NCBI GenBank assembly: GCA_026387795.1
Contig: JAPLLA010000017.1
Coordinates: 30,642 to 87,403, forward strand
Length of the DNA stretch: 56,762 nt
Direction: 5' to 3'
From: Candidatus Saganbacteria bacterium
GTDB lineage: Bacteria > Margulisbacteria > WOR-1 > JAPLLA01
Shown: positions 18,898 through 56,288 of the stretch, piece after piece
How positions within the stretch are numbered: position 1 is the stretch's first letter
Layout of the letters: each line of letters opens with the position of its first letter
Notes under the pieces: model-generated
Database searches by the model: none
What the model was told of the DNA's origin: nothing
What the model saw: the letters and a program-made list of their open reading frames with translations, nothing else
Made by a program: the position numbers and the translations under genes

Positions 18898-18924
18898 CTG
18901 TCGAATATTTATTGGGTAAATTTC
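18898..18924 (-). promoter_or_regulatory. sigma28-like promoter GAAA-N15-TTCGACAG (weak match)
   Basis: Upstream of the 18876 minus-strand ORF; same spacing as the other sites. Confidence 0.45.
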
Positions 18925-19000
18925 ACTATTTAAAGGGTTTTTTGAGAAAATGCATGTGCATAATCACCCAATTGCCAATCCTCCTTATTACCTGTAAAAT

Positions 19001-19684
19001 ATGGATATGGTTAATATCCTTATTATTGAAGACGAAAAAGACATTGTAGAAGCAATTGAGTACAATCTTAAAAAAGAAGGCTTTAAGGTTTCCCATGCTT
19101 ACGATGGCCCAACCGGTCTCAAACTAGCTAAGGATAAAATCCCGGACCTGATCCTGCTTGATCTCATGCTCCCGGACATTTCCGGATTGGATATATGTAA
19201 AAGCTTAAAAAAAGAGACCCGTACTGCCAACATCCCGATTATTATCTTAACAGCCAAAGGGACTGAAGCAGACAAGATTGTAGGGTTAGAATTGGGAGCA
19301 GATGACTATATTACAAAGCCCTTTAGCATGAAAGAATTAATCACCAGGATCAGAACGATCCTGCGGCGCTATGGCCCTGCAGAAAAAACTTCAGAGAAAA
19401 TCCTTAAATTTGATGATTTAGAAATAAATCCAGACCGGCACGAAGTAAAGGTTGGCACCAAAAATGTGGAACTCACTGCAAAAGAATTTGCACTCCTAGA
19501 ACATCTTGCCAAAAACCCGGGTAGAATATACCGCCGAGAGGGACTTCTAGACACTGTCTGGGGAATAGAAGTAGCAATTGAAACCCGTACTGTGGACGTA
19601 CACATCCTCCGCTTGCGCGAAAAGCTGGGGAAAGCAGGGAAACACCTTCAAACCCTGCGCGGAGTAGGATATAAATTTGTCTAA
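19001..19684 (+). CDS. phoB/phoP: OmpR/PhoB-family response regulator
   Basis: Receiver DLILLDLMLPDISG, K at ITKPFSMKEL, winged-helix VDVHILRLREKLG; next to phoR-like and pst genes. Confidence 0.85.
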   Translation: MDMVNILIIEDEKDIVEAIEYNLKKEGFKVSHAYDGPTGLKLAKDKIPDLILLDLMLPDISGLDICKSLKKETRTANIPIIILTAKGTEADKIVGLELGADDYITKPFSMKELITRIRTILRRYGPAEKTSEKILKFDDLEINPDRHEVKVGTKNVELTAKEFALLEHLAKNPGRIYRREGLLDTVWGIEVAIETRTVDVHILRLREKLGKAGKHLQTLRGVGYKFV

Positions 19685-20813
19685 ATTTCCTTTTCTAATC
19701 ACCTTAACTTCAAAAATAGAGGCTTTAGAAAAAGCGCTCAAGGAAGCAGAGCAAAAGACAGCTGAAACCCTTTCTTTCCTAGAAACCCAGCGCGGCCTGG
19801 CAGGAACAATTTTAAAAAGCATGAACGAAGGAGTTTTGGCAGTTGATGAAAAAGGGAATATTGTTCTTGCCAATCCTGCAATAGAAAAAACTTTTACTGT
19901 AATTGAGCCTGAACTCTTGGGCAAAACCGTACGAGCAGGCCTGCGCAACAACGAAATCGCGGAACTGATCGAAGAAGTCGCAAAAGCAGGAAAAACCATA
20001 GAAAAGGAAATCAGCATTATTGTCCCTATTGAAAAAACTTTTGCAGCCATGGCTAGCCCACTTAAAGAAGGAGAAGAAAAGAAAGGCGTAGTTTGCGTTC
20101 TCCATGACATAACAGAAATAAGAAAACTTGAGCAATATCGCACAGAATTTGTCGCCAACGTCTCCCATGAGTTAAAAACCCCGCTTACCTCTATCCGCAG
20201 CTATGTAGAAACACTTTTAAACGGAGCAATTAATGACAAAGAACACAATTTGGTATTTTTACAAAAAATAGAAAAGCATGCTTTGAATTTATCCCAATTG
20301 ATCGAGGATATCCTTGAAATTTCGGGACTTGAATCAAAAGCTCAGCTAGGACCATTCGTTGAGATTGACTTAAAAAAGACAATCCAAAAAGCAATAGAAA
20401 CCATACATATTAAAGCAGACAAAAAGGGAATTGAAATAGAAAGAAAATGCGGTATAAGCGGAACTGTTTATGTTTTGGGAATTGAAGACCATCTTTACCG
20501 TGCAATCTTAAACTTATTGGACAATGCCGTTAATTACTCCTCTTCCGGAGGGAAAGTAACTGTCAGCTGCAGCCAAGATGGTAAAAAAATAAGCCTGTCT
20601 GTTGCAGATACTGGAATAGGAATACCTCCCGAACATCTCCCTCGTATTTTTGAGCGTTTTTACAGGGTAGACACAGCCAGATCCAGGGAGCTTGGAGGAA
20701 CTGGGCTTGGTCTTGCGATTGTTAAGCATGTGATGAATATACATAATGGGGAGGTAGAGGTCGCAAGCGAACAAGGCAAAGGAACTGTTTTTACGCTGAT
20801 TTTCCCCGGCTAA
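19677..20813 (+). CDS. phoR: PhoR-like PAS sensor histidine kinase without obvious membrane segment
   Basis: PAS, VSHELKTPLTSI H-box, N/G boxes GTGLGLAIVKHVMN. Confidence 0.85.
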   Translation: MSKFPFLITLTSKIEALEKALKEAEQKTAETLSFLETQRGLAGTILKSMNEGVLAVDEKGNIVLANPAIEKTFTVIEPELLGKTVRAGLRNNEIAELIEEVAKAGKTIEKEISIIVPIEKTFAAMASPLKEGEEKKGVVCVLHDITEIRKLEQYRTEFVANVSHELKTPLTSIRSYVETLLNGAINDKEHNLVFLQKIEKHALNLSQLIEDILEISGLESKAQLGPFVEIDLKKTIQKAIETIHIKADKKGIEIERKCGISGTVYVLGIEDHLYRAILNLLDNAVNYSSSGGKVTVSCSQDGKKISLSVADTGIGIPPEHLPRIFERFYRVDTARSRELGGTGLGLAIVKHVMNIHNGEVEVASEQGKGTVFTLIFPG

Positions 20814-20817
20814 AAAG

Positions 20818-20834
20818 TTTACATTCTGTTTACA
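20818..20834 (+). promoter_or_regulatory. Pho-box-like direct repeat TTTACA-N5-TTTACA
   Basis: 11-bp periodic direct repeat upstream of porin-pst genes. Confidence 0.55.
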
Positions 20835-20901
20835 TAGGCTTCACGAGGTTGTCGTCATCTTCTTCTAAGATAGCTATGATTAAGGTTAAAGGAGAATAAA
20901 A

Positions 20902-21519: not shown

Positions 21520-21543
21520 AAAGGGGATCTGTCGCGAAGAGTA

Positions 21544-21563
21544 CCCCAGACTTAAGTCTGGGG
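21544..21563. repeat. Perfect palindrome CCCCAGACTTAAGTCTGGGG between porin and pstS
   Basis: 20-bp inverted repeat. Confidence 0.8.
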
Positions 21564-21581
21564 AATATTCACGATTTTTTT

Positions 21582-27553: not shown

Positions 27554-29729
27554 CATTTACAAAGCGTTAGGTTTAACTGATGCGGAATATGGGAAGATCG
27601 AAGAGATTATGGGGCGCGAGCCTTCTTCTACAGAGCTTGCAATGTTTTCAGTAGAGTGGTCAGAGCATTGCGGATATCCTCGTTCACGTAAATATTTAAG
27701 GCTCTTCCCGCAGCAAGGCAAATATCCCTCTTTGGTTGGGGAAGATTCGGGCGGGATCATTGTGGATGACATTGCAATCATCTTTAAAATGGAAAGCCAC
27801 AACCACCCTTCGCAAGTAGAACCAAAACAAGGGGCAGCCACAGGCGTTGGCGGAATTATTAGAGATATTTTTACTGCCGGGGCTAGGCCAATTGCATCGC
27901 TTGATTCGCTCAGATTCGGCCCGCTTAGCGAACCCTACAACCGTTATTTATTAAAAGGTGTTGTAGACGGCATTTCTTTCTATGGAAATTGTTTGGGCGT
28001 TCCCACAGTAGGCGGAGAAATTTATTTTGATGATTCTTACAGCGGAAATTGTTTGGTCAATGCCATGAGCATTGGGATCTGCAAAAAAGAAGATATTGCC
28101 AGGGCCCGTGCAGGCGGAGTTGGCAATCCTATAATGTATGTAGGCTCGAGCACAGGAAAAGACGGGATTGGCGGGTGTTCTGTGCTTGCTTCGCACGAGT
28201 TTTGCGAGGGAGAAGAAAAACGCCCTACCGTACAAATCGGCGATCCTTTTACAGAGAAGTGCTTGATCGAGGCCACTATGGAGACTTTGGCTACAGGACA
28301 TGTGGTAGGGATCAAAGACATGGGTGCTGCTGGACTTACCTGCTCTTCTGCAGAAATGGCTGCTGCGGGCGGGGTTGGGATGGAAATTGATTTAGATAAG
28401 GTGCCGCTGCGTGAAACTGGAATGGAAGCATTTGAGATCATGATGTCTGAATCTCAGGAGCGGATGTTGGTTTGTGTTAAAAAAGGAAAAGAAAAAGAGA
28501 TCAAAAAGATTTTTGAAAAGTGGGACTTGCACGGAGTTGTAATTGGATATGTTACCGAAGGGACAAAGCTCAAAGTAAATTATCAGGGAAAAGTAGTGGC
28601 AGAAATCGAAACGGATGCTTTAGCCAAGGCTCCAATTTATGACATGCCTTTTGAAAAACCGGCTTATTTGGATGAGATGAATCGGTTAGATTTAAATTCT
28701 ATTCCATTGCCAAAAGATCAAAACGATGTTCTTTTAAAATTGCTGGCCTCTCCCACTATTGCCAGTAAAGAATGGGTTTATGAGCAATATGATCATATGG
28801 TACAGATTGGGACTACTGTGCTTCCCGGTTCCGATGCATCTGTACTTAGGCTCAAAGGAACCAAAAAGGGGCTTGCAGCAACCACAGACTGCAACAGCCG
28901 TTACTGTCTTTTGAACCCTTACCGCGGGGCACAGATCGCTGTGGCAGAAGCAGCACGGAACCTGGTTTGTTCGGGTGCAGATCCTGCCGCAGTTACGGAT
29001 TGTTTGAATTTTGGCAACCCTGAAAAACCGGACCGTTTCTGGTACTTTAAAAATTGCGTGGAGGGAATTGCAGATGCATGCAAATCTTTAAACTTACCTG
29101 TAGTTTCCGGCAATGTTTCACTTTATAACGAAAGCCCCAAAGGCCCAATCAACCCCACCCCAACCATCGGAATGATCGGCATTCTTGAGGATATTGATAG
29201 ACGCGTTACCCAATTCTTCAAAGAAGATGGAAACATTATTGTATTATTAGGAGAAACCAAGGAAGAGATTGGCGGAAGCGAATATTTGAAAGTCATTCAC
29301 GAGAAAGTCGCTGGGAATGCCCCGGAACTGGACCTGGAAAAAGAAAAAGCACTACAAAAAACAGTTTACGATGCTATCCAACAAGGTTTAGTAAAATCCG
29401 CGCACGATTGTTCTGAAGGCGGGCTTGCAGTTGCGCTTGCAGAATGTTGTATTTCCAATAAAGATAAAACCGTTGGAGCAGAAATTGCTTTTGGCTCGCA
29501 TCTCCCGACTATACGAACCGATGCTTTGCTGTTTGGAGAATCGCAATCAAGGATTATTGTTTCTTGTACAGAAAAGAATGCGTTAAAAGTTTCGGCTTTG
29601 GCAAAAGAGAATAAAGTGCCATGCAGCATTATTGGAAAAACTGCCGGAAAACATTTAAAAATAGATGGGCTAATTGATCTGCCGCTAGAAAAACTTACGG
29701 GAACCTGGCGCGGAGCTTTTGTGTTTTAG
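27540..29729 (+). CDS. purL: Phosphoribosylformylglycinamidine synthase, PurL subunit
   Basis: [47 protein letters not shown]. Confidence 0.96.
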
Positions 29730-30706
29730 TCCTTGCGACGGTCGGGTTTAATGCGGCGATCCGTAAAACAATGGCTGCGGCGGTCAGGCTCGTGTCCAAA
29801 ATTTACATGCCTGCGTTCTGGTTGGGGTTTGCGACGGTTACTGTTTCCAGATAATTCTAAATTGTTATAGAACTTATAAAGTCCCCAAGCGATTTCTTTT
29901 TTAATTAGGACCAGCTCCGTTGCATTAAGCACTGCAGGAGAAATTTGCCGCTCATCTACCATAGTTAACTCATCAACAATCCTGTCTACGCCTTTTTGGA
30001 TCTCTGCCAAATCAGGTATATGTAAAGATTCTTCCCCGGCTATCGCTGTATGGCGGTCAACATAAAGATGAAAATTATTATCAAAAAATGCCTCGCAGCT
30101 GTCTACCAGCATAATAACCGCGGATTCTTTGGTGCTTGGGGGATCTCCTTCATACTTAAATTCTTCTACAATAATCCCACCCTCGCGGTAAAACCTTTTG
30201 GCATTACCATGGTGCTGTGCTATTGCAGTAAGTGCTTCTTCCGGAAAAACAGGGTCAGCAAAACGGCAGCGTAGCATTGCTACAGATTCCTGAGGGTGTC
30301 TTAATTGAATTTTCAATTGTTCTCTGGTTAAAGGGGGCAAATGTCTGCGTGTTCCCAAATGAGCCTCAGCAAAAACTTCTGGATTAAGCATTTTCCCAAC
30401 ATCGTGATAAAGACCAATGATGCGTACGAGGTCTGCATTTATTTTAGACCCTTGCCGCATAAGCTTAAATGCCACCCCTGCAGCCACATGCGCCACTATC
30501 ACGCTATGACGGAAAGTGCCGTGAATTTTACTTGAAAGCTCTTCTAAAAGAGGGGTATCTAGACTTACAAACGGTCGATAGCGCGTTCCCATTCTCCAAA
30601 TCACTCGCGCCATGGTCTGTCGCAAGGCTTCGGGAGCCCAAGGCATAATTTCGCCGCTGCTTCCTTCTGTTGGAGGTACTTGCATACAAGCTCTTTCTGC
30701 AGACAA
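29726..30706 (-). CDS. Soluble HD-domain phosphohydrolase (PgpH/7TMR-HD-like) with Arg-rich tail
   Basis: FRHSVIVAHVA...LYHDVGKMLNPEVF...IAQHHGNAKRFY; C-terminal DRR repeats. Confidence 0.7.
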   Translation of the reverse strand: MSAERACMQVPPTEGSSGEIMPWAPEALRQTMARVIWRMGTRYRPFVSLDTPLLEELSSKIHGTFRHSVIVAHVAAGVAFKLMRQGSKINADLVRIIGLYHDVGKMLNPEVFAEAHLGTRRHLPPLTREQLKIQLRHPQESVAMLRCRFADPVFPEEALTAIAQHHGNAKRFYREGGIIVEEFKYEGDPPSTKESAVIMLVDSCEAFFDNNFHLYVDRHTAIAGEESLHIPDLAEIQKGVDRIVDELTMVDERQISPAVLNATELVLIKKEIAWGLYKFYNNLELSGNSNRRKPQPERRHVNFGHEPDRRSHCFTDRRIKPDRRKD

Positions 30707-30723: not shown

Positions 30724-30750
30724 TTATCGACAAAATTAAGGTCTAATTTC
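30724..30750 (-). promoter_or_regulatory. sigma28-like promoter GAAA-N15-GTCGATAA
   Basis: Minus strand, upstream of HD gene. Confidence 0.65.
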
Positions 30751-30790
30751 AATTTTTAAGCCTACTGAAATATGCTAAAATCCCTAGACT

Positions 30791-34270: not shown

Positions 34271-35524
34271 TTAAGAAGTAAGCCCTAGCTTTCCCCTTAG
34301 TGCAGCGGTCTGAAACTGATCTGGAAGATGGTTAAAAAAACTGCGGCGCAGCTGCTGGTCCGGATATTCACTTGGGTCAAATACGCTTTTCTTAAAAACA
34401 TTGACAACCCTTATCATTGCCTCGCGGCTAAAATCGCCCTTCTGCATAAAAAGCACAAAAGCCCTCTCGCCAAGATCAAAATTTAATTCCCGATCTTCCA
34501 AAATAGACAATAGGTCTTGGGTGGAAACCGCAGAGTCATCCAGCTTCTGGGAAGCGCCGTCTTCTCCCTTCCAATGCTTAATCTTCTGTTCAATAACTTT
34601 CCAGTCTTCTGCTTCTCTGTGTGCAAACCGTAGCTGCAATTCTTCTTTGTCTAAACAACTCGCGAAAGCTCCAAAACGATCAACATAGGCCCACTGCCAG
34701 TATTGTTCCCGGAAATTTGTTTCCAGCTCGGCCAGCGTAATTTGCACTGCACCAAAAGAGTCGCCTTCAACATCTGCACCTCTAGGATATCCGCTATAAA
34801 ATCCCATACTCTTTAATAAGCCGAACATTTTATCTATGCGTGCTTGTACTGCCGGCCGCACAATCCCTTCTTCAAAGCTTTCATAATCCTGCCAACCATA
34901 TAATATATAGAAAGCAAATGCTCCCTGCGGATCTTCTCCCAAGGCGCGTGCAACCTTGGCTGCAGTTAAAAACCCGCGCGCAACCAATTCCCTGGAAAGA
35001 TGCCTCCCCTCACGAATTTTAATTGAGCCGCAAGTATACAAAGACAAAGATCTTGCTGCCCGTTGATACAGGGTATGAAAATACCCCAGTTCATACTCTC
35101 CACCGCTGCCATCGCGATAGATAAACTTAAACACTAAATACGGGTCTTTTCTGTCTGCCACAGAAGGGTCCTGTTTTATTTTCCCGTTCAAACCAATACT
35201 AACACTGGGGAGAATCCCTTCTGGAAGCGGTCGGCCCAATTCTGGGTTTTCTAATTTTACTGTATGGGGTGCTTGTATTAGCTCCAAATCCTGATCCGGA
35301 GCCAGTTGGGCAAAATTAAAGCCAAAAAAATAAAAAGCTTCCAACTTAGCAACCAATGCCCTGTTTTCCGCATCGTTTAATCCTTCTACTTTTGAGGTTT
35401 GTGCTAGGCTGGCCTGGACTTGTGCCAAGTTTCCAATCCTTTTTCCTTTAAAAACCAGGGGTTTTTGGTCCGCTTTTTGGCGGGCTGCGAGTTCAAAAAC
35501 ATTTGCTGCGGGTGTTACGCTCAT
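34271..35524 (-). CDS. Hypothetical protein, translationally coupled to PRPP-synthetase-like gene
   Basis: ATGA start/stop overlap at 35521-35524; no family recognised. Confidence 0.5.
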   Translation of the reverse strand: MSVTPAANVFELAARQKADQKPLVFKGKRIGNLAQVQASLAQTSKVEGLNDAENRALVAKLEAFYFFGFNFAQLAPDQDLELIQAPHTVKLENPELGRPLPEGILPSVSIGLNGKIKQDPSVADRKDPYLVFKFIYRDGSGGEYELGYFHTLYQRAARSLSLYTCGSIKIREGRHLSRELVARGFLTAAKVARALGEDPQGAFAFYILYGWQDYESFEEGIVRPAVQARIDKMFGLLKSMGFYSGYPRGADVEGDSFGAVQITLAELETNFREQYWQWAYVDRFGAFASCLDKEELQLRFAHREAEDWKVIEQKIKHWKGEDGASQKLDDSAVSTQDLLSILEDRELNFDLGERAFVLFMQKGDFSREAMIRVVNVFKKSVFDPSEYPDQQLRRSFFNHLPDQFQTAALRGKLGLTS

Positions 35525-37673: not shown

Positions 37674-37700
37674 TTATCGGCAGGGGTAGGCCAAAATTTC
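37674..37700 (-). promoter_or_regulatory. sigma28-like promoter GAAA-N15-GCCGATAA
   Basis: Minus strand, upstream of PRPP-synthetase-like operon. Confidence 0.7.
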
Positions 37701-37725
37701 ACTTAAAAAATTTTTTAATTTTGGT

Positions 37726-37752
37726 GAAATCTTACGGGATCTAGGGCGATAA
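37726..37752 (+). promoter_or_regulatory. sigma28-like promoter GAAA-N15-GGCGATAA
   Basis: Plus strand, divergent partner of 37674-37700, upstream of GH77-like gene. Confidence 0.7.
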
Positions 37753-37828: not shown

Positions 37829-39949
37829 ATGAATGCCGCATCAGCTGTCAGGGAAAGAAGTTTCATGCCTACATTTTCAATTTTTCAGCTTAGGTCAAAA
37901 GAAGTAAAGGACCTTGGGGCTGGAAATATGACTACTTTTAAAAAAGTAGTGGATCAGTTAATAAAAAGAGGAATTAGGCATATCTGCCTTCAGCCTATAC
38001 ATGAAACCTCTCCAGGCATGGCAAGTTTATTTAGCCGCACCAGCATGAACGCGCTTAGCCATAGAGTATTGGATTTAGCAGAAATACCGGAAATAAAGGG
38101 TTCCCGCCGTTTAAGTGCGGACCTAAGAAAAACCCTGACCCATGCAGAGGGTGTTACTGCCGGATCAAAAACAAATCTCGGGCTGGTAGAAGTAGAACAT
38201 CCTGCTTACTTGAGAAGAGCTTTTATGCGTTTTGCTGCACTTCCGGAAGATGCAGCACGGAAGCAAGAATCTTCTGCTTTTTGCAAAGAAAATTCATGGT
38301 GGCTGGATAAATACGCATATTTTAAAGCCTTAGAAGCATCCTATGGTGCAGTCCCAATGGAACAGTGGGACAAAGCATATGCTGATATGGAAAGCACAAA
38401 AGCAAAAGCTTTTATCCGCACACACCAAAACCAAATAAATTATTTCAAATATGTACAAATGGAAACTTACCGACAAGTAAAAGAAGCTCTTTCATATGCA
38501 AAAGCACAAGGGATGGAAGAAGTGGAGGCCTTGGTAGGAGTTGGAGTTGCAAGGCAAAGTGCTGAAGGATTCTTAATGCCTGAGATGTTTGATTTTACCC
38601 GCCAGATTGGCTGTTTTCCGGAACCGGAAAATGGTTACCCAATCCAGCTTTGGGGATTCCTTGCAGAAAAAGACAATGATGCTCTGCTGGAATTTAAAGT
38701 AAGAAGCTTCCAAGCCTTAAATGCCTTGGGGATTAATAGGATTGGGATTGACCATGCTTGCGGATTCTTGGGCGGATATACAACCTTTCCTGTCTACGAT
38801 CCAACGCTTATGGCCCAAGGAGAATATCGGGTATTAAAAGCAGACAATCCAAATGACGCAGAAGCAGCAGAAGCCGGCGGCCGCTGGGTTTTTAAGCCTG
38901 GGGAAGAGGAAGCGGAAAGAAAAGCATTTGCTAAAAAAGTCCTTTTTGCTTTACTGGAAAGAGTCCCGGGTATGAAGTTTACTGCTGAAACAGTTGGAGA
39001 CAAAAACCGCAGAGAAGCTTCGGAAGGAGCAATAGCTGCAGCAATTGAAGCAGGACACGACCTTACCCTAATGCGCGCACTACCCTGGGAAACTACCCCA
39101 CTTAGAGAATATGAAGCAACGGATCGCTTAAGCCACACCCACGACATGCCAGCATTAACAGGGCTTTTAACTGGTAAAGCCGGAGATCACAGCTATGGAT
39201 GGATTGATGGGGACAGAGTTTCTTCTATTCTTGCACGCTTAGGAATTCTTGCTCCAAAATTAAATGGCCCAATCGATGTTTCTAAGCTAAGCACTGAATT
39301 CATGGCTGAAATTTACAAAAGGGTTGTTGCAGGATCAGGTGCTGGAACAGTAGTTGTTCCTCTTTCTGCGCTATACACATTAACACCAGAACATTTAGAT
39401 GCGGAAAAATGGCAGTATACAAATATTCAGCCAGGTACCTCTGGAGAAGTAAATAACCCTATGGGAAATTGGGAACAAAGACTTCCAGAAATAGAAGATT
39501 TAGCAACTAGCGGAGAAGTTATTGCCCGTGCAACATCTGTAGAATCAAGACCATTTGGAGAAGTTATCACTCTTCATTCCGACACCTTCCAAACCCAGAT
39601 TAAAAAAGTAGAAGCAGAGTCAGTTTCTTACCAAGCTGCAAATGGAAATTGGACAGTATGGCAACCTACTCCTGGCATAAACCCCTTAATGGAAATGGCT
39701 GTCACTTATACCGGGCCAGAAATTACAAAAGGGTTTGAGAATAAAGCGTGGACGAAATATGCTATGTATGCGGTTGGTTTTGATCGTACCAAAGAGTATG
39801 TTTTTTATGACCTGGTTTCTGGTGAAAAACATTCAAGACATGGATCTGAACTTATAGCTCAAGAATTTTCCGTAGGGCTAAATACGGCTACAAAAGAAGA
39901 ACCAAATAGGAATCGCCATCATTTTGTAATTTATGAAGCTGTAGCTTAA
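37829..39949 (+). CDS. Divergent GH77 (4-alpha-glucanotransferase/MalQ-like)
   Basis: NSWWLDKYAYFKALE, YPIQLWGF, INRIGIDHACGFLGG (RIDHFRGF-like), FTAETVGD. Confidence 0.65.
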   Translation: MNAASAVRERSFMPTFSIFQLRSKEVKDLGAGNMTTFKKVVDQLIKRGIRHICLQPIHETSPGMASLFSRTSMNALSHRVLDLAEIPEIKGSRRLSADLRKTLTHAEGVTAGSKTNLGLVEVEHPAYLRRAFMRFAALPEDAARKQESSAFCKENSWWLDKYAYFKALEASYGAVPMEQWDKAYADMESTKAKAFIRTHQNQINYFKYVQMETYRQVKEALSYAKAQGMEEVEALVGVGVARQSAEGFLMPEMFDFTRQIGCFPEPENGYPIQLWGFLAEKDNDALLEFKVRSFQALNALGINRIGIDHACGFLGGYTTFPVYDPTLMAQGEYRVLKADNPNDAEAAEAGGRWVFKPGEEEAERKAFAKKVLFALLERVPGMKFTAETVGDKNRREASEGAIAAAIEAGHDLTLMRALPWETTPLREYEATDRLSHTHDMPALTGLLTGKAGDHSYGWIDGDRVSSILARLGILAPKLNGPIDVSKLSTEFMAEIYKRVVAGSGAGTVVVPLSALYTLTPEHLDAEKWQYTNIQPGTSGEVNNPMGNWEQRLPEIEDLATSGEVIARATSVESRPFGEVITLHSDTFQTQIKKVEAESVSYQAANGNWTVWQPTPGINPLMEMAVTYTGPEITKGFENKAWTKYAMYAVGFDRTKEYVFYDLVSGEKHSRHGSELIAQEFSVGLNTATKEEPNRNRHHFVIYEAVA

Positions 39950-39954
39950 AACCA

Positions 39955-41421
39955 ATGGGAATTAAAGAAGTATCCGGAGTAATCCATGGCCATTTTTACC
40001 AGCCTTGGAGGATCGCACCTTTCAGCCGGATCCCGCATACTTTAATCGCCCGGCAAAAAAAAGAGCCAAACCCTGGTAAATGTTTTAACTGGACCGAACT
40101 GATTGCCCAACAATGTTATCTGGCTTTAATGAATGGGGATCCAGCCCAAAGCGCATACCGCCATATGTCTTTTAACTTTGGCCCAACCTTGATTGAACAG
40201 CTAAAAATATTGTGCCCCGGGTTTTTAGGACAGTTAATAGAAGCTGACAGCTTAAGCAGAAATGCTATTGCCCAGGCATTTTTCCATACCATCCTCCCCT
40301 TGGACATGCCACAGGACCAGCTCATCCAAGTAGCCTGGGGAAAAGATTATTTTAGCCATACATTCAAAAGAACTCCCGAAGCAATGTGGCTGCCAGAAGC
40401 TGCAGTAAGCCTTGAACTTTTAAGCTTTATTGCTGCTTTAGGAATGAAATATGCCATCATTTCTCCTACTGCAGTAAAAAGGGTAAAAGAATTGGGGACA
40501 TGGAAAGATGTCAAACTAACCGCCGAAGGCCGGCCGGATTTATTGCCAGGCCAGCCATATCAAGTGCGGGGTCTGGATCCTAATTTCTACGTTTTTGTTT
40601 TTGACCCGGAACTTTATCATTTAACAGACCAAACCGAATTTTTAAATGCTCCTCCTTCTCCAAATTGGGTGGATGTTTTCAGAAAAAGACTGGGACAAAG
40701 CGGATTTATTACTATGGCAACAGACGGGGAGTTTTTTGGACACCACCGTAAAAAGGGAGCAGAAAACCTTCTCGCTCTATTCCACCAAAAAAATCCCGGG
40801 ATAAGATTTACAAACTATGGGACGGTCTTGGAAGAAGCGCTTTGTCCGCCAAGGGAAGTAGGCGTAATAGAGCTAAATCCTGAATCTTCGTGGAGCTGCT
40901 CTCACGGGTTTGGCCGCTGGGACAATGGCTGCGGCTGTAACAAAGAAAACGAATGGAGAAGGCCGCTTAGAGAAGCACTGCAATGGCTGGCACTGCAGTT
41001 TGACGATACCTTTATTAAGGAAACTCAAACTACCTTCCCATTTCCATTAAAGCCCAAAGTCAAATATATTCAAGTTTTAACTGGGGCAAAAACATTTCAT
41101 CAATTCTTGGCAGAGCAATCTGTTCGGCCAAATTTAACCCCCGCGGAATTTGCCATTCATTCTGCACTTTGTAACGCCATGGTGCCAAGGTATGCCATGT
41201 TTGTGAGCTGCGCTTGGTTTTTTGAGGGGATGGGGCTTGAAGCCGATATCTCTCTAGGTTTTGCTGCAGAACTGGCAAGAACACTTCTCCCTTTTAAACC
41301 AAAAATAGAACAGGAGCTTAGATCAAGGCTTGCTCTGGTTAAAAATCCCGGGCATGAAAAAAGGCATCAGCTTCCAGACGCCGCCCATATTTATGACAAT
41401 ATAATTGCTCTTGCTGCATAA
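39955..41421 (+). CDS. GH57-family/DUF3536-like glycoside hydrolase
   Basis: GVIHGHFYQPWR, MWLPEAAVSLELL, TMATDGEFFGHHRKKGAENL. Confidence 0.7.
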   Translation: MGIKEVSGVIHGHFYQPWRIAPFSRIPHTLIARQKKEPNPGKCFNWTELIAQQCYLALMNGDPAQSAYRHMSFNFGPTLIEQLKILCPGFLGQLIEADSLSRNAIAQAFFHTILPLDMPQDQLIQVAWGKDYFSHTFKRTPEAMWLPEAAVSLELLSFIAALGMKYAIISPTAVKRVKELGTWKDVKLTAEGRPDLLPGQPYQVRGLDPNFYVFVFDPELYHLTDQTEFLNAPPSPNWVDVFRKRLGQSGFITMATDGEFFGHHRKKGAENLLALFHQKNPGIRFTNYGTVLEEALCPPREVGVIELNPESSWSCSHGFGRWDNGCGCNKENEWRRPLREALQWLALQFDDTFIKETQTTFPFPLKPKVKYIQVLTGAKTFHQFLAEQSVRPNLTPAEFAIHSALCNAMVPRYAMFVSCAWFFEGMGLEADISLGFAAELARTLLPFKPKIEQELRSRLALVKNPGHEKRHQLPDAAHIYDNIIALAA

Positions 41422-43612: not shown

Positions 43613-43658
43613 AAAAACCTCCCTTCATTAAGGATTTAATTATAATCTAACCTGCTGT

Positions 43659-43685
43659 GAAATTCTTCTCTCTTTTTTACGAAGT
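43659..43685 (+). promoter_or_regulatory. sigma28-like promoter GAAA-N15-TACGAAGT (weak match)
   Basis: Upstream of 43707 gene. Confidence 0.4.
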
Positions 43686-43706: not shown

Positions 43707-44819
43707 TTGTCCATTCATATCTTTAGAGAAAAACCCATAGGCTTGGGCCCTTTTTATCATAAACCTCCAGAAGAGGTCCCTCCTACTGGAAGAGTTAGAG
43801 GAGGAGCCAAGGTTGGCCCTGCATTACTAAAAGAAAAAGCAAAAGAAGCCTTGCTTAGGCTTCCACAATTAAAACCCACAGAAAAGGTTTGTGTCATTTA
43901 TGATTCGGAAACCGCTGCAGTAGCCGAGGCTTTTATGGCTGCTGGCAGAGAGATTGGGAGCAAAGCAATTTTTTATAAATTAACAGAAGGAGTAGCCCGG
44001 TTAGAAGACCCTGCGCTATTATCTTTTATCGACGGCAGCTCTTCTTGCGTGTTTATAAATGCTTTTACAGAAAAAACCGGAGAATCTCCGCAAAGGATGG
44101 CTTTGCTAGGTAAAGAATATTCCCACCCGGAAGCACGTATGATACATTGCCCAGGCATAACCCCCCAAACTCTTAGTTTGGACTTGGATTATGATGCCAT
44201 GGTAGCAAGAGCACGCAAGATCATGCCTTTGCTTGCAGAAGCGGAAGAAGTAGAAATATCCACTGCCAGCAGAACTTCTTTCAGGCTTAAAATCAGCGGC
44301 AGACCGGTTGTAACTGAATTCAGGGAAATCCACCCGGATAGAAGAAGATTTGATTTGCCGCTGGGAGAAGTGTTTTGCGCCCCAATCGAAGAGAGTGGAA
44401 ACGGTGTTTTGGTGGTGGATGGGACCATTGGCGAATTTGGGATCCCCTCTCCACCATTAAGGATAACCGTAGTAAATGGACATATTGATTTTGCCCAACT
44501 GGAAAAAGACAATCCTTCTTATCCCCGCCTAGCCGAACTTATAACCCAGCTTAAGATTGATCGCTGCGCCTCTATCCTGGCAGAATTTGGGATTGGACTG
44601 CTTGGCCCCCACCCCCTAAGCGGTCATATTGTAGTAGACGAAAAATGCTTAGAAACCATCCATATTGCTTTTGGGAAAAACTACCAGCCAGCACAATTGG
44701 GCGGGAAAAATGTTTCGGAGGTACATCGTGATTTTGTAATTGCAAAGCCTACTGTAGTTCTCGTTATGAAAGATGGTTCCAGGCTTGTACTTCTCAAGGA
44801 TGGAAAACTACAAGTCTAA
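43707..44819 (+). CDS. M29-like leucyl aminopeptidase family protein
   Basis: LPLGEVFCAPIEESGNGVLVVDGTIG; AEFGIG; AFGKN; HRDFVI. Confidence 0.7.
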   Translation: MSIHIFREKPIGLGPFYHKPPEEVPPTGRVRGGAKVGPALLKEKAKEALLRLPQLKPTEKVCVIYDSETAAVAEAFMAAGREIGSKAIFYKLTEGVARLEDPALLSFIDGSSSCVFINAFTEKTGESPQRMALLGKEYSHPEARMIHCPGITPQTLSLDLDYDAMVARARKIMPLLAEAEEVEISTASRTSFRLKISGRPVVTEFREIHPDRRRFDLPLGEVFCAPIEESGNGVLVVDGTIGEFGIPSPPLRITVVNGHIDFAQLEKDNPSYPRLAELITQLKIDRCASILAEFGIGLLGPHPLSGHIVVDEKCLETIHIAFGKNYQPAQLGGKNVSEVHRDFVIAKPTVVLVMKDGSRLVLLKDGKLQV

Positions 44820-44845
44820 TTCCCCAAAAAAAATCGTTCCAAACT

Positions 44846-44872
44846 GAAATTTTCTAAAGCCCCAAACGATAA
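44846..44872 (+). promoter_or_regulatory. sigma28-like promoter GAAA-N15-AACGATAA
   Basis: Upstream of Glu dehydrogenase-family gene. Confidence 0.65.
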
Positions 44873-44932: not shown

Positions 44933-46339
44933 ATGTCTAGTTTTGAACTATTGGGTGGAGGGGGAACAGCAAGATTAAGATATGAGCTTCAAAAACACTC
45001 TCCGGTTACTACTTTACTAAGGGATTCTATGTTGTCCAATTGGAGCGAAATTGCTTTTCAAGTTGGCCAGCGTCTTACTTTCGGCAAAAAAGGTCTCCCG
45101 GCTTTTGTTTCGGACCAATTGCATCAAGCAGGTCTTCGTTTGGCTTCTCCGGATGTTTTGGAAATCCCCAGCAGCGGAATACACGTTGGCGGCGGCATAT
45201 GGATTAGACGTGTTATGCCTGAGTCTCTTGGAGAAGTTTCGCGTCCGTATTTTGAACATGTGCGGTTGTTTGAGATTCTTGGTCCGCGCATTAAAGGTGA
45301 GCCTGGGCTGCATGCATTTATTGGCGTGCATTCAATGATGGCGGTTAATGGGAGGCCCTGGTGCATTGGGGGAACTAGGATGAGAGGAGATTATGCATCC
45401 GTAGATGAAGCGGCCAGAGATGTGCTGCGTCTTTCCCGTGCTATGACTTATAAATGCGCTGCTGCAGGAATCCCGATTGGCGGCGGCAAATGCGACATTA
45501 TGTTTGACCCAAAATCTCCGCACCGAGATCTGGTCATTAAACAATTTGCCCTGGCTTTGGAATATTTAAAAGTAATCTTTACCGGGCAGGACATGAACAT
45601 TTCTCCCAGAGACGCTGTTAATATGGCTTTAGTAGCCCAACATTCAATTATTGGCCCATCTGATCTGTCTATGGGAGGAATTCCACCTACCCCACCTACT
45701 GCTAAAGGGGTTTTTCTGGCAATTAAAAAAGCTGCGGAGCTAAAAGGAATCGCTATGGATAAACTCGCTATAGCATTGCAAGGTTTGGGAGGCGTTGGCG
45801 GGAATTTAATCCCATATCTTTTGGAAGCAGGCGTAAAAATAGTTGCTACCGATGCAAAACCCGAAACCAGAGCAGCCATGAAAGAAAAGTTTGGAGGGAA
45901 AATTTCTGTTTTAGATAATCCGGATGATATTTATGCTGTAAAAGCGGATGTGTTTTCCCCTTGTGCCAGAGAAGATGTGCTAAACGATGACACTATCCCC
46001 AGAATCATTGCTGCAGGAGTAAAACTGGTCATTGGCGCCGCAAACAATCCTCTAAGGGACGATGTAAAACACGCGGAAATGTTAAGAGATGCGGGAATTT
46101 TGTATTTTCGGGACTTTGTAGTCAATGGCGGAGGACTCATGGGAGTTGCTTCCGGAGTTATGCGGTTTGATCCTATGCAAAGAGTAGAAACTATTTCCAG
46201 GTCAACCGAAAGATTGCACCAGTTTATGACTAGGGAAGGTTTAACCGGCCACGAAGCAGGAGAAAGATTGGCAGAAGAGCAGCTGGCACAGTGGAACCGG
46301 TTTGCACAGTTTGGCTGGCAGGGGCCAGAGGTTGGGTAA
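44933..46339 (+). CDS. Glu/Leu/Phe/Val dehydrogenase family protein
   Basis: MTYKCAAAGIPIGGGKCDIM; ALQGLGGVGGNLIPYLLEAGVKIVATD; NPL...VVNGGGLMGVASG. Confidence 0.85.
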   Translation: MSSFELLGGGGTARLRYELQKHSPVTTLLRDSMLSNWSEIAFQVGQRLTFGKKGLPAFVSDQLHQAGLRLASPDVLEIPSSGIHVGGGIWIRRVMPESLGEVSRPYFEHVRLFEILGPRIKGEPGLHAFIGVHSMMAVNGRPWCIGGTRMRGDYASVDEAARDVLRLSRAMTYKCAAAGIPIGGGKCDIMFDPKSPHRDLVIKQFALALEYLKVIFTGQDMNISPRDAVNMALVAQHSIIGPSDLSMGGIPPTPPTAKGVFLAIKKAAELKGIAMDKLAIALQGLGGVGGNLIPYLLEAGVKIVATDAKPETRAAMKEKFGGKISVLDNPDDIYAVKADVFSPCAREDVLNDDTIPRIIAAGVKLVIGAANNPLRDDVKHAEMLRDAGILYFRDFVVNGGGLMGVASGVMRFDPMQRVETISRSTERLHQFMTREGLTGHEAGERLAEEQLAQWNRFAQFGWQGPEVG

Positions 46340-47877: not shown

Positions 47878-49200
47878 TTATAAAAACTCATGCGCAGGCA
47901 AGCCGGGATCCTTGATTACCATTGCCATGATTTTTTCTGCATCCACCTCCGGCATAGCCAAAAGCAACCTCAAAACATTTTCTGACAAAGAAGCCGAAGT
48001 CGTAGTGAAAAGGCTGTCTGTACCCAAAACTACTTTTACCCCTCTCCCCAACCAATAAAATAAAGGCAAGTTACGATATCTGCTCACTTGGACCGCTCCA
48101 TTATCCCACCTCTTTTTTCTGGCTGTAACCGCAGGACAAACCTCCATTGTTATATCGTTTGCAATAATATCTTGTAACATAGCCTGCATTTCAGCATTAA
48201 ATCGGGGAGGAAGTAGTTTATCTTGCAATCCTCTTGGCGCCAACAAAGGATAGGGTGACAATAGATATCCATGCCCTATCCTAAACCTGTGTTCAGGATA
48301 ATCCATTTTCAGCCCAATAATAACATCCAAGAATTTTCGAAAGTATCGATAATGTTTAGCATAATATTTTTCACGGTCGCACGGAAATTTTAGCTCTTCT
48401 AATTTCCCGGCTCGATTACTCGGATCACCAAGATGAACAGTTACTAAAAATCGTTCTGCCCAACCTAATTGCAAAACCCTTCTTAAGGCTTCTCCCCACT
48501 TTTGCGGTGATTGGCCCTTGTCTTTAACAGCATATTCCGGACCACTAATATCAATACCTCCAATTAAACCAGCATGACTAGAGCGATGCAGTTGCCCCAT
48601 CGCTGCAATTACAGCTTCGCGGTTATTGTACCCCACAATTTTATTTTCTTTCCCTCTATTGAAACTGGGGATTAATCTTACTTGTGCCCCCCTCTCTTGA
48701 ACAATTGGGGCAGCTGCAGCATCCGCAAACCATTCAAGAGAAGTGGCAACCGTTGTTTCCAATTCGGATAAAGAATAAGGGCCTTTGCCTAATAATTTTA
48801 TTGGGGACATCGGATTCAATCTTAAGCCAAATCCAACAATTTGATCGCTTTCTAATATTGTGGCAACGGCATTTGCAATGGCTAGCCTTAACAATTTGGG
48901 AGTATCGAGATGGTCGTCTCTCGCCCAATCATGCAGATATTGATTTCGGCTTACGACAGGTTTATTGGGATCTTGTAATCGTGCCTCTAATTTCTTTTTA
49001 ATTTCTTCATCTTCCGTCTTTCCATTAAATTCCCCCGCAAGAAACCGTTCAGATATGGCGCAAGTTAAATGCACATGATGATCAACTTTTGGAATTCCTC
49101 TTAAATGTTGCAACAAAGGGCGGCACTCTTTCTTTGACGGAAAGCGATCCTGCAATAATCTTGGTGATTGTCGCAATTCTGCAAGCCCTGGTAAATACAT
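47878..49200 (-). CDS. Adenosine deaminase-like metal-dependent hydrolase (divergent)
   Basis: PKVDHHVHLTCA; LIGGIDISGPE; VTVHLGD; RIGHGYLL; VVLGTDSLFTT. Confidence 0.75.
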   Translation of the reverse strand: MYLPGLAELRQSPRLLQDRFPSKKECRPLLQHLRGIPKVDHHVHLTCAISERFLAGEFNGKTEDEEIKKKLEARLQDPNKPVVSRNQYLHDWARDDHLDTPKLLRLAIANAVATILESDQIVGFGLRLNPMSPIKLLGKGPYSLSELETTVATSLEWFADAAAAPIVQERGAQVRLIPSFNRGKENKIVGYNNREAVIAAMGQLHRSSHAGLIGGIDISGPEYAVKDKGQSPQKWGEALRRVLQLGWAERFLVTVHLGDPSNRAGKLEELKFPCDREKYYAKHYRYFRKFLDVIIGLKMDYPEHRFRIGHGYLLSPYPLLAPRGLQDKLLPPRFNAEMQAMLQDIIANDITMEVCPAVTARKKRWDNGAVQVSRYRNLPLFYWLGRGVKVVLGTDSLFTTTSASLSENVLRLLLAMPEVDAEKIMAMVIKDPGLPAHEFL

Positions 49201-49224: not shown

Positions 49225-49251
49225 TTATCGCCTAATTTTTGCTATAATTTC
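49225..49251 (-). promoter_or_regulatory. sigma28-like promoter GAAA-N15-GGCGATAA
   Basis: Minus strand, upstream of deaminase-like gene. Confidence 0.65.
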
Positions 49252-49258
49252 AACGAGT

Positions 49259-49775: not shown

Positions 49776-50462
49776 TTATTCCTCAATCTCGAGTTTAAAC
49801 AGAGTATTGTCCAGAAACCTTGGGCTGCGAAATAATACTTTGGGAAGCAGGTCCGGCTTGAATGGATATCCAAGGAAAGGTTCATTATCGCATAGCGGGA
49901 GTTCTGCTCTCCTGCCTTGCTGGTCAGTTACATTGCCCCACAAATATCCTCCTTTTATTGGATAAAATTCCAGCCTCACATTCGCCGGTAAACCTCGACC
50001 AAGCACAGAAACAATTTGGACCATCTGAAAATCAGTTAAAGCCCTGCCGGGTAAATGCCATTCATTTGGGTCGCAATAATCTTCAACCGTGACTTCTGAA
50101 ACCCCGTGCCTTGCCTGGTTTACATCTACTAAGTTTGTATCTTCAGAAACTGCAGCTAATAATTTTTCATCTTCTTTCAAATTCTCGTTTATCGGAGTAA
50201 ACACAATAATAAGTTGCTCTCTTTGAATATTTACTAGCCATACCGGTTGCCCATTTCCCCTCCACGTATTACTCTTTGGGGTTAGATCGAGCGGGTATTT
50301 TACCCCGGAAGCGTCAATCCTATCGCGGATTGCAATTTGCCCAGTACTGGATAAAGCCATTAAGTTCCTATGCAAATTTCCGGGCGCCCCTTTTACCATG
50401 CCAGAGGTGCCAGGTTCTAAATATAAAGTCGAATAAGCGGCTCTTCCATTTACAATATACAT
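49776..50462 (-). CDS. Hypothetical protein (228 aa)
   Basis: ORF with its own sigma28-like promoter. Confidence 0.45.
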   Translation of the reverse strand: MYIVNGRAAYSTLYLEPGTSGMVKGAPGNLHRNLMALSSTGQIAIRDRIDASGVKYPLDLTPKSNTWRGNGQPVWLVNIQREQLIIVFTPINENLKEDEKLLAAVSEDTNLVDVNQARHGVSEVTVEDYCDPNEWHLPGRALTDFQMVQIVSVLGRGLPANVRLEFYPIKGGYLWGNVTDQQGRRAELPLCDNEPFLGYPFKPDLLPKVLFRSPRFLDNTLFKLEIEE

Positions 50463-50479: not shown

Positions 50480-50506
50480 TTTTCGTTCATTATTTGTTAT
50501 AATTTC
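50480..50506 (-). promoter_or_regulatory. sigma28-like promoter GAAA-N15-AACGAAAA
   Basis: Minus strand, upstream of 50462 ORF. Confidence 0.45.
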
Positions 50507-50546
50507 AATAATTATGATGGTTTTTTCTATTGAAACATCGTGCGAG
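50498..50546 (+). pseudogene. tsaD 5' remnant: TATAAT element plus MMVFSIETSCE
   Basis: Aligns with MLILSIETSCD (53778) and [11 protein letters not shown] (56337); upstream TATAATTTCAATAATTAT shared with 53758 region. Confidence 0.6.
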
Positions 50547-50634: not shown

Positions 50635-51339
50635 CTACTTCTTTACCAAGATGCTGAAACTGTCCGAAGTTGCTGGCCCACCATCAACAACAGGGAAACT
50701 AACCTCCCTAAGCATCTGAGTTGTATATCCCCTTTTGCTAAGCTCGGTATTAACTCCAGGAACACAACCCATAGTAGGATCCCCCCAAAAATATGACAAA
50801 TAAAACAGTTCACCAAAGCAAGAAATACGCGATACTCCTAAGGACAGCAATACCTGCCCGAAATGGTCCCATTTCTTTTGCTTAAATGATTCCTTTTCTG
50901 GAGAAGAATCTGACCACTCGCTTAGCCCGGAAGGGTTAGGCAAATTAAATATTGAATCATGAGGCGTTGGCCCTTTATATTCTGTATCAATTAACACTAT
51001 TTTTTGTTGAAGAGTAAGATTGCCAAGCCATTTCTCGACCTCAATGCGGTAACCAGATTGAACAAATACAAACAGCGGAATATGGGGACGGCTCATCAAA
51101 TATCGGATCATTTTTTCTTGATATGATTGATAATGCGTATCGCAAAGACGCGCTCCACCAAGGATTTCATCTCCGACTTTTTTTGCTCCTCCATAAGCTA
51201 CTGTAAAAAGGGGGTGAACCAAAACATCTATTTCTCCCCCACTTTTTCGGATTGCAGTTTTAAGCTTACCATGTAAAGCTCTATTGAATAGTTCATTATT
51301 GGGAACAAAGGTTCTAAACTCTAATTTAACTATATCCAT
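50635..51339 (-). CDS. Hypothetical protein (234 aa)
   Basis: ORF bounded by the direct repeats, with its own sigma28-like promoter. Confidence 0.5.
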   Translation of the reverse strand: MDIVKLEFRTFVPNNELFNRALHGKLKTAIRKSGGEIDVLVHPLFTVAYGGAKKVGDEILGGARLCDTHYQSYQEKMIRYLMSRPHIPLFVFVQSGYRIEVEKWLGNLTLQQKIVLIDTEYKGPTPHDSIFNLPNPSGLSEWSDSSPEKESFKQKKWDHFGQVLLSLGVSRISCFGELFYLSYFWGDPTMGCVPGVNTELSKRGYTTQMLREVSFPVVDGGPATSDSFSILVKK

Positions 51340-51392: not shown

Positions 51393-51419
51393 TTATCGTT
51401 AACTTTCAACCGATATTTC
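51393..51419 (-). promoter_or_regulatory. sigma28-like promoter GAAA-N15-AACGATAA
   Basis: Minus strand, upstream of 51339 ORF. Confidence 0.65.
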
Positions 51420-51439
51420 ACCATAAAGACATGCATATT

Positions 51440-51980: not shown

Positions 51981-52042
51981 GGTGTTTGGCCATGGGAGCT
52001 TTTTTCCTTCAATGCAATAATATCGTAGGGAGGCAAAAAAAT

Positions 52043-53140: not shown

Positions 53141-53224
53141 CTTTGGGCCATGGGGGCTTTTTTTATTCTACAATTGTAGTACAATAGCCACAGGCCTAAT
53201 TAAAAAAGAGGAGGACAAATTATC

Positions 53225-53716: not shown

Positions 53717-53777
53717 GGAAGGGATCCACAGTTCCTCTTGTGTTCCGCTTGCCGCTTAGTATAATTTTAATAATTAT

Positions 53778-53905
53778 ATGCTAATTCTTTCTATCGAAAC
53801 TTCTTGTGACGATTCATCGGTTGCCGTCATTTACGATGGACAAATAAATCTTTCTGATGTAGTCACTTTTTAAACTAAATTTCAAAAGAAGAATGGCAAG
53901 ATTTA
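53778..53905 (+). pseudogene. tsaD 5' remnant with in-frame stop
   Basis: [39 protein letters not shown] aligns through the stop with intact ...[16 protein letters not shown]. Confidence 0.75.
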
Positions 53906-53933
53906 TGCAATAGTATATCGTTTAGAAGCCCCT

Positions 53934-56219
53934 TTAGTGGACCGTCTCTGCAATTGACGCATAAAGCATTGATCCTGCATTCGCTCCAGCGAGGGAAATT
54001 TCTGTTTCCGGACCTGCGTCTGGGATATAAAAAACCTTTGCACCTACTGCTCCCCAAAAAGAGAGCAGCTCCTGCTTGGGCAACAGGCTTTGCATAGCCA
54101 TTTCTGTAACCGTAGAATCATAATTTTTCCAGCGATAATAACGAACCAGACCATGCATAAATAATGGAAAGGTTTCGTAGTCTTCTTTACCTAATTGTTG
54201 TTTTCGGGTTAGGCCGAGTGCTTCCTTAAATTGAGCTTTTATTGCACCGGGCAAGCTAAATATGCCAATAGCATCAAGGTGGGAAAACCCTTCAATAAAA
54301 GCATCGGTCATAATAGTATCTGCTTCAAGTCCATACTCCAGATGTATCAGTTCCTGCAGGGAACCATTAAAAGGGGTTTCCATGTCTTTTTGGGCTACTA
54401 TTGCCAGACCCAGCGTCCCGTAAAAGTGATAATATTGCCCCATTTTTTCCTTGGGGTCGCTAGTGCTCATGCCTAAGTTGGGCAAATTATTGTCAAGAAT
54501 ATCCTTAACATTAAACCGTTCTCCATTAACCTCAACATAAAAAACGTTATAACGGAGGGTTTTGCTTATATCCTGCATAATCATGATCGCCTGAAAAACA
54601 TCCCCATGGAATAAATTCAGAGAAAAGGCGAATAATTCCCCCAAATACTCCGCGGCACTAGAATATTCACCTTTTGAATAAGGATGTTCTTGTACCCATA
54701 GAATGAGGTCTTTTGACTCTTTGATCAACAAATCTTCTTTCACATTATTTTCCAAGAAGAAGGTCCCATTAGTAGGAGGAACCGGATCCAGTGATAAAAG
54801 AATAAACGTTTTCCTTAAGGAGGGAAAACGAAGTAGCACTCCCTCCTCTTCAGCATAGATCCTGATTTTTTCTCCAAATGTTTTATTTGTTTCTTCTGAA
54901 GAGATAAAAACATCCAGAGAGGCTTTTGCCTCAACCTTGCTACCGTCAGTCATTAAGGCCAGGGTTTCTCTTTCTATAACGGAGCGGGCCGAAAGCTCCT
55001 CTGAACCAAGCAGTCTGGCAAAAGCCCCGTTCATATTGTCCCTTCTTGTTCTAAAACGGATGGTTGTTTCGTTGATCGTCACGGTTTTGGGATCCTGCCA
55101 ATAATAATTCCCATAGTTATCAATTCCTCTTTGGCCAAAATCCAAAGCAATGTATTCGCGAGACATATAATTATCTACATATTGCCAGGCAGAACCAGTA
55201 TAGGCTTCTTCATCCAAAGTCTGTCCTTTGCTTTTACTGCTAACAGAAGAATAGATAGAATCCTTGGACAGTTTTTCTACCTCCCCTGCCAAAAACGCAA
55301 GTAGCTCCTTGTCTTCAACTGTTCTCCCCATACAAAAACCGGTCCCCCAATCATTAGAATATGAAAGAACACCTACCGGGATAACTTCCAGGTACAATTC
55401 ACCATCTCTAAAAGAACGAAATTGGGCAATATCAACCAAATTTGTTATTCCTGTTTCTTCCAGAAAAGCCCTTTTATCAAGAAACAAGCTTTCATCTGTT
55501 ATTTCGGCCCTTGCTGTTCCGTCTTTAGGACGCAAAAATAAATGGCCGAGGTTTTTTCTAATATCATATTGCATGTCTTCTAATAGCGCTTCCCATCTTG
55601 CCTCGCCATAGTTACCGATAACATACTGTCTTACCCCTTCGAATTCCAAAGGAGAATTAAGCGTTTCAAACAAGGCCCCCATTTGCCAGCCTGTATTGGC
55701 GTTTGCTTCAAAAGCCAGATCAATTGCTTGGGCTACATCTTCCGCAGGAAAAATTATCTCTTCAGCTTCGATGGAATATATCCTCTGAAGGCTTCCTGCC
55801 ACAAAGGTAGTTAACACACTTCTAACGTATACATCTTCTGAAAAAACCAGCCTTTGCCAAGCCTCATCACCAAAAGAACATTCTATAAAATCTTTTAGCC
55901 TTCTTAGGTCTTCTCTGGTTTTCACTTGATTAAATAGTTGTTCGAAAGCCTTTGTTTCAGCCCTAAAAAAACTTAGAATGTCCAAACAAATTCCCGGCTC
56001 AACGGAAAGAAACACGTTCGGGATCTGCAAGCCAATATCTGAACAGGCTATTGTTTGTGGCTGCCAATTTAGCTGATAAGGTTGGGTTTCGCAAAACAAG
56101 CTCGTTCCATAAGACAGAGAAAAGGTGTTTTCCTCGCAATTATCTTCTGCCCTTCCAGGATTAAAATCACCATTATTGGGAGCAAACATATAATGAAGGC
56201 CTAAAGCTCCTACAATCAC
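53934..56219 (-). CDS. Large orphan protein (761 aa)
   Basis: Long ORF, AAGGAGC ribosome site, no family recognised. Confidence 0.5.
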   Translation of the reverse strand: MIVGALGLHYMFAPNNGDFNPGRAEDNCEENTFSLSYGTSLFCETQPYQLNWQPQTIACSDIGLQIPNVFLSVEPGICLDILSFFRAETKAFEQLFNQVKTREDLRRLKDFIECSFGDEAWQRLVFSEDVYVRSVLTTFVAGSLQRIYSIEAEEIIFPAEDVAQAIDLAFEANANTGWQMGALFETLNSPLEFEGVRQYVIGNYGEARWEALLEDMQYDIRKNLGHLFLRPKDGTARAEITDESLFLDKRAFLEETGITNLVDIAQFRSFRDGELYLEVIPVGVLSYSNDWGTGFCMGRTVEDKELLAFLAGEVEKLSKDSIYSSVSSKSKGQTLDEEAYTGSAWQYVDNYMSREYIALDFGQRGIDNYGNYYWQDPKTVTINETTIRFRTRRDNMNGAFARLLGSEELSARSVIERETLALMTDGSKVEAKASLDVFISSEETNKTFGEKIRIYAEEEGVLLRFPSLRKTFILLSLDPVPPTNGTFFLENNVKEDLLIKESKDLILWVQEHPYSKGEYSSAAEYLGELFAFSLNLFHGDVFQAIMIMQDISKTLRYNVFYVEVNGERFNVKDILDNNLPNLGMSTSDPKEKMGQYYHFYGTLGLAIVAQKDMETPFNGSLQELIHLEYGLEADTIMTDAFIEGFSHLDAIGIFSLPGAIKAQFKEALGLTRKQQLGKEDYETFPLFMHGLVRYYRWKNYDSTVTEMAMQSLLPKQELLSFWGAVGAKVFYIPDAGPETEISLAGANAGSMLYASIAETVH

Positions 56220-56261
56220 AATAAACCTAGCTCCTTTTACGGGGGGAGTCTCCCTATATAT

Positions 56262-56288
56262 ATATCGACAAAAAACAACCTGAGTTGC
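56262..56288 (-). promoter_or_regulatory. sigma28-like promoter GCAA-N15-GTCGATAT (weak match)
   Basis: Minus strand, upstream of 56219 ORF. Confidence 0.45.

Follow-up and report, generated by a model that had tools for sequence, protein, structure and literature searches.

The window analysed here is a whole 56,762-nt stretch of DNA from a metagenome-assembled genome (MAG) of Candidatus Saganbacteria (Margulisbacteria/Saganbacteria, WOR-1; 2.04 Mb in 66 contigs, 93% complete), and it carries a family of short elements, here called class-A promoters, placed ahead of its genes. Six strong sites have GAAA followed after 17 nt by CGATAA, where 0.16 are expected from 100 shuffles and the largest shuffle gives 3. 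A first-pass annotation had described the element as GAAA-N15-NNCGATAA, which equals GAAA-N17-CGATAA, and all six lie where it had put them. In every one of the six the GAAA has T on both sides (TGAAAT), and for spacings between 12 and 20 nt TGAAAT and CGATAA occur together in the window solely at N16 (6 matches, against 0 in the reversed sequence), which bears out the fixed spacing that had been claimed.

The first of these sites, TGAAATTAGACCTTAATTTTGTCGATAA at 30724..30751(-), precedes an HD-domain gene at 29726-30706(-) (PF01966). Two further sites form a divergent pair: TGAAATTTTGGCCTACCCCTGCCGATAA at 37674..37701(-) lies 29 nt before a 707-aa phosphoribosyl-pyrophosphate (PRPP)-synthetase-like gene (35521-37644(-); Pribosyltran_N match, N-terminal extension of ~250 aa), and TGAAATCTTACGGGATCTAGGGCGATAA at 37725..37752(+) lies before a GH77 gene (37829-39949(+)), after which comes a GH57/DUF3536 gene (39955-41421(+)). 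The remaining three are TGAAATTTTCTAAAGCCCCAAACGATAA at 44845..44872(+), before a GDH-family gene (44933-46339(+)), TGAAATTATAGCAAAAATTAGGCGATAA at 49225..49252(-), 24 nt before a gene for a 440-aa protein with no match in Pfam (47878-49200(-)), and TGAAATATCGGTTGAAAGTTAACGATAA at 51393..51420(-), 53 nt before a 234-aa orphan gene (50635-51339(-)).

Four weaker sites had also been proposed, and we scored them with a matrix trained solely on three other genomes of the class. Two hold up, with scores that fall inside or close to the range of perfect sites: TGAAAT-N16-CGAAAA at 50480..50507(-) (16.5), 17 nt before a 228-aa orphan gene (49776-50462(-)), and TGAAAT-N16-CGACAG at 18898..18925(-) (13.6), 21 nt before a 527-aa gene (17293-18876(-)). 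The product of the latter has 6 arginines within residues 2-40 and is possibly HEAT-like, with a CNOT1_HEAT match below cut-off. A third, TGAAAT-N16-CGAAGT at 43658..43685(+), before an M29-peptidase-like gene (43707-44819(+)), is marginal (7.2), and the fourth, GCAA-N15-GTCGATAT at 56262..56289(-), before 53934-56219(-), is unsupported as a promoter because its score of 4.1 is at background level. When two mismatches are allowed, N16 sites are no commoner in the window than in its reversed sequence (6 vs 8), so the backing for weak sites is confined to matrix score and gene position.

The element extends far beyond the window. In its refined form, TGAAATTT-N13-NCGATAA, it has about 60 copies in the MAG; GAAA-N17-CGATAA gives 70 matches genome-wide compared with 12 in the reversed control, and when TGAAAT and CGATAA are allowed any gap from 4 to 30 nt, about 60 of the 75 matches fall at N16 and 5 at N15. 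TGAAAT-N16-CGATAA has 39, 22 and 36 matches in three relatives, with 0 in the reversed controls. Conservation of the motif in related genomes, which the first-pass annotation had suggested comparing, is seen in all 30 same-class genomes searched, each of which is enriched for it. Outside the class the enrichment is patchy. Some Margulisbacteria of other classes (families f16, f18 and f28), in which flagellin was not detected, are also enriched, and one such genome (G043) has 93 sites compared with 8 in reverse.

The sites are positioned as promoters should be. For 83% of the 63 exact sites in the source genome an open reading frame (ORF) of at least 100 aa starts no more than 60 nt downstream, compared with 6% of random positions (p about 1e-52), where the statistics come from site-centred loci and 176 kb of background, namely six 20-kb stretches plus the window. 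This upstream placement, which the first-pass annotation had left to be checked, differs from that of E. coli FliA, over half of whose sites are intragenic (PMC4183435). A pyrimidine-purine step is found 6/7 nt past CGATAA at 103 of 138 sites in four genomes, with 13-57 at other positions, and this peak is at the place where the initiator should be, consistent with transcription that would begin about 7 nt after the -10. Several ORFs begin exactly 6 nt downstream of CGATAA, implying leaderless mRNAs. Shuffles, reversed controls, the counts in relatives and ORF proximity together rule out a chance origin of the motif. One could instead suppose that it simply serves these bacteria as their general housekeeping promoter, as rpoD itself has a site; but there are only about 60-70 exact sites in 2 Mb, most other ORFs are without even a degenerate one (2/118 score 10 or more), and the genes that bear sites differ in N-terminal composition. 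We regard this as very improbable and reject it on frequency.

As to type, the core -10 CGATAA stands at a fixed distance from a -35 that contains AAA, as in sigma28/FliA promoters. The E. coli FliA consensus, TAAAGTTT-N11-GCCGATAA as printed (PMC2859248), has near-identical geometry, the same CGATAA core and a similar A/T-rich TTT tail of the -35, but where E. coli has TAAAGTTT and a GC before CGATAA, the sites here have TGAAATTT and nearly free positions. The classical FliA -35 TAAAGTTT is not the -35 of these sites, the GC of the extended -10 is not kept (G 31%, C 38% at the two positions), and genomes of the class show no enrichment of TAAAGTTT-N12-CCGA. The FliA-like assignment made earlier thus holds for the sigma28 type, though the -35 is TGAAATTT rather than TAAA-like; judged by sequence, the sites are a genuine sigma28-type promoter family.

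A FliA/WhiG-class sigma factor had been supposed to drive these promoters, and the source genome does encode two FliA-related sigma factors, besides RpoD and one of extracytoplasmic-function (ECF) type. The longer, of 238 aa, lies within flgI-flgJ-sigma-flgB-flgC, has counterparts at 63-69% identity in 29 of the 30 other genomes of the class, and matches the FliA/WhiG model from end to end with 145.6 bits. The shorter, of 209 aa, scores 82.4 bits with that model, so that both are below the TIGR02479 cut-off of 189.6 bits. It lies at the distal end of a flagellar export operon, after flhA and two small genes, and this order (flhA-orf-orf-sigma) is repeated in many class genomes. The best PDB matches of its profile are FliA chains (E = 5.6e-16), in two stretches corresponding to regions 2 and 4; these are joined by about 40 residues, without a region 3. 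Its AlphaFold model is modest (predicted local distance difference test 71.6, predicted template-modelling score 0.44), and a Foldseek search with the model returns sigma factors including WhiG and FliA, with poor superposition of the whole chain. Among the 30 other genomes of the class, 27 have a relative with 61-73% identity; in G030 there is a short fragment, and in G018 and G028 the protein was not detected, all three being drafts. Most of the phylum has relatives at 31-40% identity. In named species, relatives of one of the genome's sigma factors come from Candidatus Saganbacteria/WOR-1 and from further Margulisiibacteriota, Termititenax among them. Genome G000 also has two short ORFs (94 and 79 aa; C43:484-630(+) and C53:7669-7815(-)) that match sigma region 4 only.

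Between flhA and the short sigma gene lies a conserved helical protein of 80-139 aa (L221:7486-7887(-), with orthologues in A2). No Pfam match points to homology with FlgM, the AlphaFold model is helical and confident in the C-terminal half and disordered at the N-terminus, and there is no fold match at E <= 0.001. Its position makes it a candidate regulator or anti-sigma factor of the 209-aa sigma, which is a guess from gene order.

Which of the two sigma factors reads the motif? Quite likely, we think, the cognate sigma of the TGAAATTT/CGATAA promoters is the 209-aa, region-3-less protein derived from FliA. The free bases before CGATAA fit a sigma without region 3; Koo et al. in 2009 reportedly set out a model of extended -10 recognition, and the region-3 argument here rests on the title of that work, as cited in PMC2859248, and on general knowledge. 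The exact motif also stands upstream of the 209-aa-sigma operon in the source genome and four relatives. The alternative, that the full-length 238-aa FliA of the flgI-flgJ-sigma-flgB-flgC cluster reads these promoters, draws on its better full-length FliA/WhiG match and on its presence in nearly all class genomes. We find it unlikely: this protein has region 3, yet no extended -10 GC is kept at the sites, and its recognition helix (LSRSKVNRLL) strays further from the FliA pattern than that of the 209-aa sigma (LSESQVSRIC). Moreover, a separate promoter type with CCCGAT/GCCGAT sits upstream of flagellar operons, and the flagellins of flagellated relatives have TAAAGTTT-N12-CCGA instead, as read directly in two flagellin promoters in the phylum. 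The full-length FliA more likely reads GCAAGTTT-N13-CCGAT, its candidate target. This other sigma28-like element was observed before the fliK operon (L221:17315-17340(-)), before two genes on another contig (L223:16882-16907(-) and 11970-11995(-)), and before the flgF operon of a relative (L237:4483(+)).

Several observations weigh against assigning the motif to the short sigma. Nearly every genome of the class has both FliA-related sigmas, which means that co-occurrence is no guide to which of them the motif belongs to. In the draft G018 there are 80 sites and no detected 209-aa sigma, and just five of those sigma operons that were examined have an exact site upstream. Another draft, G024, lacks a close 238-aa FliA and yet has 33 sites. 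The earlier proposal of a FliA/WhiG-class sigma with a large non-flagellar regulon is supported in substance, and the refuting conditions set for it did not hold wherever they were run, with the short region-3-less sigma rather than full-length FliA as the probable reader.

The genes behind the sites are varied. Outside the window, 29 of 50 scanned proteins behind exact sites in the source genome lack a Pfam match at E <= 0.01, and among the others are divergent enzymes and kinases as well as a RelA/SpoT-like protein; rpoD bears a class-A site. A conserved regulon has to be rejected, as BLAST comparison of four genomes shows almost all members to be singletons: the only recurrent ones are rpoD, a zinc-ribbon protein of ~70 aa, the orf-sigma operon and a family of protein kinases. 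What the products do have in common is the N-terminus, which contains 9.6% arginine, the figure for 156 other ORFs being 4.2% (p = 7e-12). In three genomes the excess does not reach beyond roughly residue 40, in the fourth it is weaker, and it remains against G+C-matched controls. The composition control drew on the site-centred loci and background given above, plus loci L221 and L105. Among ORFs outside the seed set, a degenerate motif (matrix score of 10 or more) precedes 6 of 20 with Arg-rich N-termini and 2 of 118 with few N-terminal arginines (p = 1e-4). Promoter and N-terminus are thereby linked, and it is chiefly this link that makes us suspect a common fate of the products, such as export. 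A separate run of methyltransferase-like, radical-SAM-like and YcaO-like genes (named by eye) at L221:565-5885(+) has degenerate class-A sites and possibly constitutes a cluster for peptide modification.

That nothing flagellar is present, as first noted, is true of the window, but elsewhere the genome has basal-body and export genes, some of which we named by eye. One contig carries fliK, flgD, flgE, fliM/N, fliO, fliP, fliR, flhB and flhA, and another flgG, flgA, flgH, flgI, fliE, fliF, fliG, fliH, fliI and fliJ; FlhA, FlhB, FliP, FliR and FliI, the components of a flagellar export apparatus, thus occur together with rod and rings. Five relatives also have FlgG/H/I and FliE/F/H/I/J, and FliI is 79-85% identical to relatives. 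The motility parts were not found. Flagellin_N (PF00669) has no match in the 31 class genomes, which are drafts although several are 95-100% complete, while 8 genomes elsewhere in the phylum have it; MotB_plug (PF13677) is likewise at 0/31 in these drafts and present in 29 other genomes among the 75 searched. The C-terminal torque domain of FliG is missing in all six class genomes examined: in the source genome FliG (L105:7954-8469(+)) is a 171-aa protein with FliG_N/FliG_M only, and the frames in five relatives (loci in L235-L239) have about 156-210 aa. We read the class as keeping a non-motile, export-capable flagellar remnant, in which actual export is something we infer. The literature searched contains no paper on flagella in Saganbacteria, although one may exist.

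Retention of basal-body and flagellar type III export genes without motility is also seen in Buchnera, which has filament-less flagellar basal bodies but no recognised secreted proteins (PMC8109811); here, in contrast, these genes are inherited class-wide together with a sigma28-type regulon of candidate substrates. Non-flagellar type III secretion systems, for which a single origin from a flagellum shorn of its motility genes has been proposed and which are reported to be monophyletic (PMC3459982), similarly lack motility genes and keep export. They differ in that here the FlhA fragment scanned scores as flagellar (170 bits, against 146 bits for HrcV/SctV) and rod, P/L-ring and hook genes are kept. 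Given the reported monophyly, Saganbacteria would be a separate case.

In flagellated bacteria sigma28 turns on the late, exported flagellar proteins once the hook-basal body is complete. Since filament, stator and FliG torque domain were not found but rod, rings and gate are kept, the same timing logic may apply to a new gene set. The reading we favour, and hold to be reasonably probable, is a class-wide sigma28-type regulon, most likely read by the 209-aa sigma, with late timing and Arg-rich candidate export substrates. Specifically, TGAAATTT would serve as the -35 and CGATAA as the -10, with a start 7 nt downstream; the 209-aa sigma would transcribe roughly 60 or more genes here, including rpoD, and its own operon in the source genome and at least four relatives; sigma28 timing would now control fast-turning-over proteins, many of which would be marked as candidate export substrates by their Arg-rich N-termini.

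Export of the products through the non-motile flagellar type III system is itself conceivable, but we would sooner bet against it than for it. The arginine bias resembles an export signal without establishing one, and the regulon contains members that are unlikely substrates, both recognisable cytoplasmic-type enzymes (transaldolase, aldolase, phosphofructokinase, GDH) and regulators (a LacI-like protein and RpoD). Such members suggest a real but intracellular regulon, that is, a growth-phase, dormancy or stress programme in which the Arg-rich N-termini serve, for example, in nucleic-acid or membrane binding, and we give this slightly less than an even chance. It accommodates the RelA/SpoT-like, histidine-kinase, protein-kinase, ROK, PRPP-synthetase-like and GH77 proteins as well as aldolase, transaldolase, phosphofructokinase and rpoD, but the content differs almost wholly between genomes, which is odd for a core physiological programme, and the N-terminal bias is sharp and common to otherwise unrelated proteins. 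Only tentatively do we go beyond the regulon itself, to a separate class-wide conversion of a flagellum to a non-rotating exporter, in which the region-3-less sigma would couple completion to fast-diversifying cargo recognised by its Arg-rich N-terminus.

Large sigma28 regulons are already known. In Bdellovibrio bacteriovorus, which is flagellated, FliA is a global regulator whose attack-phase motif is TTAAG-N16-CCGATA and whose regulon takes in flagellar genes (PMC3627812). As here, a sigma28-type motif stands upstream of a large, mostly non-flagellar set with many uncharacterised proteins; in the present case, however, neither flagellin nor a stator was detected, the sigma proposed as reader is without region 3, and targets scarcely overlap between relatives. 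What is new is the region-3-less sigma, the variable regulon content and the filament-less setting. A sigma28 relative without region 3, with promoters lacking the extended -10, would be a natural test of the part played by region 3 in promoter specificity, and the promoter is a simple sequence handle with which the candidate cargo of an uncultured class can be listed genome by genome. How secretion machines evolved from flagella is mostly debated on the basis of end states; bacteria that have gate, rods, rings and sigma28-type control throughout a class, and in which neither filament nor stator nor FliG torque domain was detected, would represent a living intermediate.

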